Assembly (NCBI GenBank): GCA_015233895.1
Contig: JADFXG010000001.1
Span: 124,001-188,000 of the forward strand
From: Nitrospirota bacterium
GTDB taxonomy: Bacteria > Nitrospirota > Thermodesulfovibrionia > Thermodesulfovibrionales > Magnetobacteriaceae
DNA length: 64,000 nt
Direction: 5' to 3'
Shown here: piece by piece, positions 26,965 through 29,836 of the stretch
Layout of the letters: each line of letters opens with the position of its first letter
Position numbering within the stretch: position 1 is the first letter of the stretch
Made by a program: the position numbers and the translations under genes
Notes under the pieces: model-generated
What the model was told of the DNA's origin: nothing
The model's input: only the letters and a program-made list of their open reading frames with translations
Database searches by the model: none

Positions 26965-26979
26965 CAGGCAAACTGCCTG
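26965..26979 (-). promoter_or_regulatory. SECIS-like hairpin for the C-terminal Sec codon
   Basis: On the minus strand CAGGCA-GTT-TGCCTG is a perfect six-pair stem with a three-base loop beginning in G. It starts after the TAG stop, and its loop lies 23 bases beyond the second TGA, inside the accepted bacterial window. It could also be an ordinary palindrome, but position and loop base fit. Confidence 0.6.
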
Positions 26980-26987
26980 GCCTTAAT

Positions 26988-27203
26988 CTACACACCTCAG
27001 GTGCCGCCATAGCCAACTGTAACATTACCGTCCTCCAGAATTACCGGAACTATCCTCCGCCCACCGGAATAACTTAGCATCTCATCCATTTTGTCCCCAT
27101 CACGGGCTACGTCAAAGAATACGGCATTGCCTCCATAAGCCGACCTGGCTTTTTCCGTGTAGGGTCAACCGGCTTTCCCGTATATAACTACATCTTTTTT
27201 CAT
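26988..27203 (-). CDS. Glutaredoxin-like selenoprotein (UXX-star type) with two in-frame TGA (Sec) codons
   Basis: From ATG 27203 the frame reads M-K-K-D-V-V-I-Y-G-K-A-G, then TGA (27167-27165), then P-Y-T-E-K-A-R-S-A-Y-G-G-N. It continues through FFDVARDGDKMDEMLSYS, GGRRIVPVILEDG and NVTVGYGGT to a second TGA (26999-26997), then G-V and TAG. The fold signature is glutaredoxin: beta strand VVIYGKAG, active site U-P-Y-T in place of C-P-Y-T/C, and the cis-Pro motif IVPVIL. Read through both TGAs it gives 71 residues. The C-terminal U-G-V-stop fits the 'Uxx-star' selenoprotein families as I understand them. Each TGA is followed by a fitting hairpin (separate entries). AGGGGG stands 11 bases upstream of the ATG. 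It is divergent from the diguanylate cyclase gene. If no Sec machinery exists in the genome it would instead be a broken gene; the intact frame and hairpins argue against that. Confidence 0.85.
27137..27151 (-). promoter_or_regulatory. Bacterial SECIS-like hairpin for the active-site Sec codon
   Basis: On the minus strand AAGCC-AGGTC-GGCTT forms a perfect five-pair stem with a five-base loop. The loop begins 18 bases after the first TGA and has G at its second and third positions. Bacterial SECIS elements need a G among the first loop bases at roughly this distance for SelB binding. The hairpin lies within coding sequence, as usual. Confidence 0.75.
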
Positions 27204-27270
27204 TTTTTTGAAGTCCCCCTTTTCTTTGTGCTGGACATATATTACCAATATAACATATTATAAAGGACTT

Positions 27271-28269
27271 ATGAGCGTGCATAGGAAAACTAAAGGAGAT
27301 TTAACCAGAGAGCTTGATGAGCTTAAGGACAAGGTGTCTTATTTTGAGGAAAAGGCTCATAAGTGTAAGGAGTGTGAGGCTAACCTTAAGGAGACTGAGA
27401 CCAGGTTTATGTTAATGGCCGATTCAGCGCCAGTTTTTATATGGATGTCTGAGGCTGACGGTAAACGCAATTATTTTAACAAAGTGTGGCTTGATTATAC
27501 AGGAAGAACGATAGACGAGGAATCCGGCAATAACTGGATTAAAAACATTCACCCGGAGGACAGAGAGAAATTTGAAGAGATTTATAACAAGCATGTGGAG
27601 CTGAAAGAAGCCTATAAGGTAGAGTACCGTTTAAGACGAAAAGACGGTATTTACCGCTGGATACTTGAAACAGGCACCCCTCGTCATTGTATGAACAATG
27701 AGTTTAACGGCTTTATAGGCTCAGCTGTCGGTATAACGGAAAGAAAGGAGGCCGAGGATCGCCTTCACTACATCGCTCATCACGATATGCTTACCGGATT
27801 GCCAAACAGGATGCTTTTCTTTGACCGTCTCAATAATTTCATAGAACAGGCTAAACGGTATAACTACATGCTGGCGCTGCTTTTTCTTGATCTTAACCGC
27901 TTTAAAGCTGTAAATGACCTCTATGGCCATCACATTGGAGATATGCTTCTTAAGGAGACTGCCCTTCGCCTCAACGATTGCATCAGAAAGTCAGACACTT
28001 TGGCACGTATGGGCGGAGATGAGTTCAATATCATACTGTCACGAATAGCTGGCAAGAAGGACCCCAGATCTGTCGCTTTAAAAATCATAGAGTCCCTTAC
28101 AAAACCATTTCTTATCGAGGGGTATGAGTGCTCTGTGGGAACCAGCATTGGTATCAGCATTTATCCGCTTAACGCCTCAGAGGCTACTATGTTAATAAAA
28201 AAGGCTGACGAGGCCATGTATAAGGCTAAAGAGAAGAAGACCAGTTCTTTTGAATTCTGCACCGTGTAA
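27271..28269 (+). CDS. PAS-GGDEF diguanylate cyclase
   Basis: I start at ATG 27271 (MSVHRKTKGDLTREL), with AAGGA five bases upstream; the frame is open from 27208 but without a ribosome binding site. The 332-residue product has a short coiled coil, a PAS domain (about 50-165, ADSAPVFIWMSEADG, YRLRRKDGIYRWILETG) and a GGDEF domain (HHDMLTGLPNR, LFLDLNRFKAVND, ARMGGDEF). RKSD stands five residues before GGDEF and fits the inhibitory c-di-GMP site RxxD. It makes c-di-GMP from two GTP and is likely feedback-controlled. No transmembrane region is seen. It is divergent from the selenoprotein gene, with about 67 bases between starts. Confidence 0.92.
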   Translation: MSVHRKTKGDLTRELDELKDKVSYFEEKAHKCKECEANLKETETRFMLMADSAPVFIWMSEADGKRNYFNKVWLDYTGRTIDEESGNNWIKNIHPEDREKFEEIYNKHVELKEAYKVEYRLRRKDGIYRWILETGTPRHCMNNEFNGFIGSAVGITERKEAEDRLHYIAHHDMLTGLPNRMLFFDRLNNFIEQAKRYNYMLALLFLDLNRFKAVNDLYGHHIGDMLLKETALRLNDCIRKSDTLARMGGDEFNIILSRIAGKKDPRSVALKIIESLTKPFLIEGYECSVGTSIGISIYPLNASEATMLIKKADEAMYKAKEKKTSSFEFCTV

Positions 28270-28429
28270 GACCTTTTCAACCTGCTGCTAAAACCTTTAA
28301 ACACCTCATGTTGACATCTTAATGCTCTGTGTTGGTATGTGGTACATTTCCTTTTAATTGGTATAAGTGCTTGATTTATTTATGTGTATTTGTTAGTATA
28401 ATTTAGCTTTTGCTTTGAAGGAGGGCCTT

Positions 28430-29836
28430 ATGAAAAAACATCTATGGTCTTTAATTGCTTTTGTGTGTCTGATACTTTTAACAGTAGCCTCAGCAACAGA
28501 GGGGGCAAACAGGGGTGTGGCAATTAAAATTAAAAATGAAAGCGGAAAAGAGGTGACTCTCTACGGCGAAAGCCATGCTCTTGTAATCGGTGTTTCAGCG
28601 TACCAGGCTGGCTGGCCAAAATTGCCGGGGGTTGTTAATGACGTAGAGGTTGTCAAAAAGCTTTTAACACGCCAGGGTTTTGAAGTCGTTACCGTTTTAA
28701 ATCCCAACAAGGACAAGCTTCTAAAGGCATATGATGATTTCATTCAAAATTATGGTTCAAATCCTGACAACAGATTGTTATTTTATTATGCAGGACATGG
28801 GTTTACGGAACATAAGTCTTATGGCGGCGACATTGGATACATAGTTCCTGCAGATGCACCTGTACCAGAGAAAGATAAGGCTGCTTTTGCTGCAAAGGCC
28901 ATTGATATGCAGCAAATAGAATCTTTTGCTAAAAGAATTGACGCTAAACATGCGTTGTTTCTCTTTGACAGTTGTTTTTCAGGCTCTATTTTTGATATGA
29001 CACGTGCTGTGCCTGAAAGTATTTCTTATAAGGCCTCAAGGCCTGTGCGTCAATTTATCACCTCAGGGGCAGCAGATGAGCCTGTGCCGGATAAGAGTAT
29101 CTTTTTGGAGCAATTTAAGGCGGCTTTAGAGGGAGCTGCCGCTGATAAAGATGGCTATGTAACCGGCACGGCATTGGGTGAGTATTTGCAAAACACCGTC
29201 ACTAATTACTCTAAGGGTACACAACATCCCCAATACGGTAAAATAAGAGATTCTAAATTAGACAAAGGCGATTTTGTTTTCAAAGTGAAAGATGCGGTGG
29301 CTGTTGCCACAACGCCGGCCATCAGCGATTCACAGCCAGCACCGGCTGAAAATGCGAGATTCGAACCCGATGGCTCAAAGCAGCAACAAAGCGAACCTGA
29401 AGTTGACTCAACACCGGATGAGGAGGCAACATTCAATCCGGATGGCTTAAAGCAACAACAAAGCGAACCTGATGGCTCTAAAGCATGGTGGGCAAGTAAT
29501 CTTAGAGAGATGAAAAGATCATTCATTGAGCTTAAGTCATACTTAGAGACAGAATCAAATGTTGATAAGAAAATAGTTGCAATCAACAGATTTAAAGATA
29601 CTTTTCCAAAAGATAATCCCTATTCAACAGAAGATAATGCAATTATAATGGAGATCAATAAAATACTTGAAAGATTAAAAAATAATAAAACAAATTATAA
29701 TATCGCCGATGAAAACAGGCCAAAACCTGAACCTGTGCAAAGACCGGAGGATACGCCCCCGGCAGATGTGCCGCAATCTATTGGGAATGCCTTAAAAGGG
29801 TTTTTTGGTATTTTCACTAATCCAAATGCGAGATAA
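28430..29836 (+). CDS. Secreted caspase-like (peptidase C14) protein
   Basis: I start at ATG 28430 (MKKHLWSLIAFVCLILL), with GGAGG at the right distance. A signal peptide ends near TEGA. The caspase-like domain (about 30-260) starts ALVIGVSAYQ and has PGVVNDVEVVKKLL. It carries the His of FYYAGHGFTEH and the Cys of LFLFDSCFSGS, the catalytic dyad of clan CD metacaspase-like peptidases. After it comes a linker with a duplicated FEPDGSKQQQSEP / FNPDGLKQQQSEP unit and a helical C-terminal region. These bacterial proteases usually act on peptides after basic or other P1 residues and often have regulatory partners; none is visible here. Periplasmic or external location is inferred from the signal. 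Confidence 0.85.
   Translation: MKKHLWSLIAFVCLILLTVASATEGANRGVAIKIKNESGKEVTLYGESHALVIGVSAYQAGWPKLPGVVNDVEVVKKLLTRQGFEVVTVLNPNKDKLLKAYDDFIQNYGSNPDNRLLFYYAGHGFTEHKSYGGDIGYIVPADAPVPEKDKAAFAAKAIDMQQIESFAKRIDAKHALFLFDSCFSGSIFDMTRAVPESISYKASRPVRQFITSGAADEPVPDKSIFLEQFKAALEGAAADKDGYVTGTALGEYLQNTVTNYSKGTQHPQYGKIRDSKLDKGDFVFKVKDAVAVATTPAISDSQPAPAENARFEPDGSKQQQSEPEVDSTPDEEATFNPDGLKQQQSEPDGSKAWWASNLREMKRSFIELKSYLETESNVDKKIVAINRFKDTFPKDNPYSTEDNAIIMEINKILERLKNNKTNYNIADENRPKPEPVQRPEDTPPADVPQSIGNALKGFFGIFTNPNAR

Follow-up and report, generated by a model that had tools for sequence, protein, structure and literature searches.

A short glutaredoxin-fold gene with two in-frame TGA codons, a probable double selenoprotein of UXX-star family 1, in a Nitrospirota bacterium

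The DNA analysed here (the window) is a stretch of 64,000 nucleotides from a Nitrospirota bacterium (GenBank assembly GCA_015233895.1, contig JADFXG010000001.1, positions 124,001 to 188,000), and all the coordinates given below refer to it. On the minus strand, from 27203 to 26988, it carries a gene whose reading frame contains two TGA codons and whose product is a protein of 71 residues with a glutaredoxin fold. The ordinary listing of open reading frames contains none of at least 60 amino acids over 26988-27203 on this strand, and the gene is missed by ordinary gene finding because its two putative selenocysteine (Sec) codons look like stops. The features of the locus are the following:

26988..27203, minus strand: coding sequence of 71 amino acids with two putative Sec codons (translation with TGA as U; 102.4 bits against NF041114, cut-off 72)
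27203-27201, minus strand: start codon ATG (sequence)
26990-26988, minus strand: stop codon TAG (sequence)
27165..27167, minus strand: TGA of Sec13, at the N-terminal active-site position of glutaredoxins, GKAGUPYT (sequence; TGA in most homologues)
26997..26999, minus strand: TGA of Sec69, the UXX-star Sec, U-G-V-stop (sequence; TGA in all homologues read at the C-terminus)
27214..27220, minus strand: probable ribosome-binding site, AGGGGGA, 10 nt upstream of the ATG (read from the sequence)
27137..27151, minus strand: candidate hairpin SECIS1, AAGCC-AGGUC-GGCUU, loop 18 nt after the Sec13 TGA (sequence and hairpin comparison)
26965..26979, minus strand: candidate hairpin SECIS2, CAGGC-AGUUU-GCCUG, loop 22 nt after the Sec69 TGA and wholly beyond the TAG (sequence and hairpin comparison)

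With TGA read as U, the product is MKKDVVIYGKAGUPYTEKARSAYGGNAVFFDVARDGDKMDEMLSYSGGRRIVPVILEDGNVTVGYGGTUGV, and its C-terminal codons, TGA GGT GTG TAG (26999-26988), form a Sec-X-X-stop end. A preliminary description of the locus had proposed an ATG-started minus-strand frame with TGA at the glutaredoxin active-site position (U-P-Y-T), and our coordinates and translation agree with it. The Sec at position 13 stands, but the count of a single Sec does not, as a second TGA (26999-26997) lies inside the same interval and had gone unnamed.

The protein matches the model NF041114.2, 'UXX-star selenoprotein family 1', over positions 1-70 of 70, with E = 1.1e-29 and a score of 102.4 bits against the curated cut-off of 72, so that the earlier assignment of the translated frame to the UXX-star selenoproteins is borne out by this search. 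The other UXX-star models score 46-78 bits on the same protein; families 2 and 3 (NF041211, NF047338) and the HUGP/GUXX-star fusion (NF045501) have a similar domain and give 46-49 bits, below their cut-offs, and only the last third of the fusion model, which has 236 positions, matches the 71-residue protein. The wider UXX-star model detects no further member in the genome, where the next match scores 22.3 bits. The glutaredoxin-like body that had been read from the letters is likewise recovered, both by the structural matches reported below and by the glutaredoxin domain PF00462, whose score of 28.6 bits is just over the gathering value of 22.9; TIGR02181 (glutaredoxin 3), at 27.5 bits, does not reach its cut-off of 90. 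In a review of 2026 the same family appears as 'Distant Grx-like protein 1', with the motif UxxT and 2 Sec residues (PMC13188914). The gene is like family 1 (NF041114) in its full-length match, in the Sec of UxxT, in having 2 Sec and in the U-X-X-stop end, and nothing of substance differs; the family and its Sec positions are already catalogued (NCBIfam; PMC13188914), and the Nitrospirota gene is an added member. The locus had also been called hidden, which is right for six-frame calling of open reading frames but not otherwise, since NCBIfam holds a curated model of exactly this family. With a whole gene containing two recoded stops in 71 codons, it makes a clean case of an annotation blind spot. 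No function of UXX-star family 1 is shown in the literature within our reach.

A family-1 member over the cut-off occurs in 22 of 60 relatives and in 61 of the 396 genomes of the phylum (about 15%), in both sets nearly always with two TGAs. All homologues read as far as the C-terminus have TGA at codon 69. The single TGA listed for L039 and L042 is due to a profile match that ends before this codon, both codons being TGA in the sequence itself. Codon 13 is usually TGA, with Cys in four homologues that retain the TGA at 69 (L053, L054, L059 and L084) and TAA in one copy (L063). A sequencing error at 27165-27167, which had been considered beforehand, is very unlikely, as TGA stands at the equivalent codon in other genomes, the same genus included. 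Judged by dN against dS in the comparison with L038 (0.087 and 0.439), the gene is under purifying selection; against L032 the values are 0.292 and 2.07, and L040, the nearest relative, has diverged too little to be informative (dN 0.032, dS 0.021).

Two of the homologous loci deserve a separate mention. In the copy with TAA at the Sec13 codon (L063 / L085, G359:C63), the Sec69 TGA and SECIS2 are intact, and the TAA may be due to assembly error or to decay; genome G359 also has a second, weaker match on C55, with two TGAs. A distant relative from an Actinomycetes MAG (L054, 6001-6201) has an N-terminal CPYC and TGA only in GGSUGM-TGA, a pattern that combines a classic dithiol glutaredoxin site with a C-terminal Sec.

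The genes for the Sec machinery were searched in the assembly, which comprises 3.7 Mb in 65 contigs and is listed as 100% complete. selB (362.5 bits), selA (605.2 bits) and selD (315.4 bits) are all over their cut-offs, and the tRNA-Sec (selC), with anticodon UCA, scores 70.7 bits; thus the absence of selA, selB, selC and selD, which the preliminary description had named as counter-evidence, did not arise. Moreover, selD has an in-frame TGA of its own in VRAAGUVSKLG, which we take to be the usual Sec position of SelD. In the same genome gshB was not detected, and neither was GCS2 (PF04107), the only type of glutamate-cysteine ligase through which gshA was looked for.

The published bacterial SECIS model has a loop of 3-9 nt, a stem of 4-16 bp, G in the first two loop positions, 16-37 nt from UGA to loop and an MFE of −7.5 kcal/mol or lower (PMC13188914). 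Both hairpins fall within the ranges for loop, stem, G position and spacing, with 5 bp, 5-nt loops (AGGUC and AGUUU) and distances of 18 and 22 nt, respectively. The hairpin with a loop G that had been placed 18 bases after the TGA was found as described, its loop starting 18 nt and its stem 13 nt after that codon; the account of the SECIS elements was correct in this part, and missed the second one past the stop codon. The MFE of SECIS2, −9.0 to −9.7 kcal/mol, lies below the published threshold, and that of SECIS1 is −6.0 kcal/mol as a minimal hairpin and −8.7 with flanks, a value that depends on the stretch folded. Compared with shuffles, the folding energy is not significant for either hairpin (z = 0.65 and 0.07), so that the hairpin evidence rests on comparison and not on energy; with z near zero, folding energy was discarded as evidence for SECIS.

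With one hairpin taken per sequence, the best among those with G at the second loop position, SECIS2 had a stem of at least 5 pairs in 38 of 42 distinct sequences, and 236 of 252 cells were paired, compared with a mean of 182.5 (sd 4.2) and a highest value of 198 in 2,000 swaps of the 3′ arms between sequences, a control that does not allow for this selection. The random-window control does allow for it, and there the observed median score was reached by 0.7% of windows. At equivalent positions the stem has pairs of the types C-G, U-A, G-C, A-U and G-U, with many two-sided base changes. Because SECIS2 lies outside the coding sequence, its conservation is independent of that of the protein. SECIS1 has 5 pairs in 26 of 39 sequences, and some homologues are without a clear hairpin there; it overlaps conserved codons and, taken alone, is weak. 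A synonymous-codon bias at the SECIS1 loop was also considered and rejected, since AGG is dominant there but elsewhere in the gene too.

DUF466 of epsilonproteobacteria offers a precedent for a C-terminal Sec with a stop codon after it and a SECIS to serve it; it shares with our gene the C-terminal Sec and the SECIS past the stop and is a different protein from UXX-star family 1 (PMC4607533). We also observed that, in several homologues (L024, L042, L053, L054, L063, L068, L070-L073 and L078), the frame ends two codons past Sec69 with another TGA, the first UGA being Sec and the UGA 9 nt on presumably the stop. In these, the SECIS loop is 16-22 nt from the first UGA and about 7-13 nt from the second; the latter distance is shorter than the published 16-37 nt, which may explain the choice between Sec and stop. 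These homologues offer a small model for the reading of UGA as Sec and of a UGA nine bases on as a stop.

An AlphaFold2 model, built with Cys in place of Sec, has a pLDDT of 92.4; among PDB structures it is matched best by glutaredoxins (Z about 9, with residues 1-67 in the alignment). Glutaredoxin 3 and cGrx2 (3grx, 4tr0, 4tr1) have in common with it the fold (residues 2-67), the position of the nucleophile and the cis-Pro; by contrast, our protein has UPYT for their CPYC, no last helix and an extra C-terminal Sec, and its chain presumably ends where glutaredoxins begin their last helix. The DSSP strings give isolated two-residue strands at 51-52, just before cis-Pro53, and at 69-70 (Sec69-Gly70), and a second model led by the orthologue L067 (pLDDT 82.1) has matching strands at 50-51 and 68-69; the two differ in lead sequence, but their alignments share members. 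In ordinary glutaredoxins, the cysteine of glutathione binds beside the strand leading into the cis-Pro.

As far as it can be judged from the sequence, the gene almost certainly encodes a double selenoprotein of UXX-star family 1. We suggest that SelB carrying Sec-tRNA would bind the small hairpin after each UGA, that Sec would be inserted at residues 13 and 69, and that translation would stop at the UAG two codons past the second UGA. The nucleophile would be Sec13, where helix 1 begins. The secondary-structure strings of the Cys-for-Sec models suggest that the tail Sec69-Gly-Val folds back beside the strand leading into cis-Pro53, i.e., at the site for the glutathione cysteine in ordinary glutaredoxins. 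Since neither gshB nor GCS2 was found in the genome, the tail is proposed to take the place of glutathione: Sec69 would act as a built-in glutathione and resolve the selenenylated Sec13 as an intramolecular diselenide, and the Sec13-Sec69 diselenide would then be reduced by a thioredoxin-type partner. The product would most likely be a glutathione-independent reductase. That the Sec-Gly-Val tail is an intramolecular mimic of glutathione, occupying the groove next to the cis-Pro strand and closing the Sec13-Sec69 diselenide, and that the protein is a glutathione-free glutaredoxin in organisms making no glutathione, is a possible but rather tentative reading; the proposal as a whole, double selenoprotein and tail mechanism together, stands a little below an even chance. 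The anatomy of the protein suggests a direct mechanism that can be tested.

The main alternative, which we consider less likely, is that the double selenoprotein does not cycle through a diselenide and that its two Sec jointly coordinate a soft metal or metalloid. According to the review of 2026, the Sec of UXX-star families may coordinate metals or interact with substrates as yet unknown (PMC13188914). A pair of soft ligands close together would fit such a role, and Sec69 varies less than Sec13; however, the motifs GKxGUPYT and VPVI are of the redox type, no metal-handling gene adjoins the selenoprotein gene and no neighbour is widely common to the family. Less probable still is that the protein is a Sec glutaredoxin working with an external low-molecular-weight thiol and that Sec69 is an accessory. 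The fold, the PF00462 score above its cut-off and the existence of Sec glutaredoxins (PMC13188914) agree with it, whereas the failure to find gshB and GCS2 in the genome and the distance of the TIGR02181 score from its cut-off speak against it; moreover, the TGA at position 69 is kept even in homologues with Cys at position 13, and therefore Sec69 does not look accessory. Finally, that TGA is a true stop in a pseudogene or chance frame, the short peptide not being made, is highly improbable: the TAA at codon 13 of one homologue (L063) and hairpin energies no better than those of shuffles would fit, but two TGAs occur at matching codons in dozens of genomes across the phylum, with Cys at the matching codon in others, the Sec machinery is complete, SECIS2 is conserved outside the coding region, and on the strength of the homologues both a chance frame and a sequencing error were rejected.

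Returning to the locus, the selenoprotein gene has as neighbours PAS/GGDEF, cNMP-binding, response regulator, histidine kinase and caspase-domain genes, and the family loci contain no widely conserved neighbour pointing to a substrate. The divergent PAS/GGDEF-like gene, or one related to it, is present at seven loci (at most 6 genomes); its conservation is only partial, and for this reason the gene neighbourhood was dismissed as a guide to function. In the window, this divergent PAS/GGDEF gene lies at 27208-28269 on the plus strand, and the TTG listed as its start is 5 bp away from the ATG of the selenoprotein gene; a later in-frame ATG (MSVHRKTKGD) seems the more likely start and would leave space for a shared promoter region. 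Near the selenoprotein gene, at 28415-29836 on the plus strand, there is also a gene for a caspase-domain (Peptidase_C14) protein with a repeated FxPDGxKQQQSEP tail.
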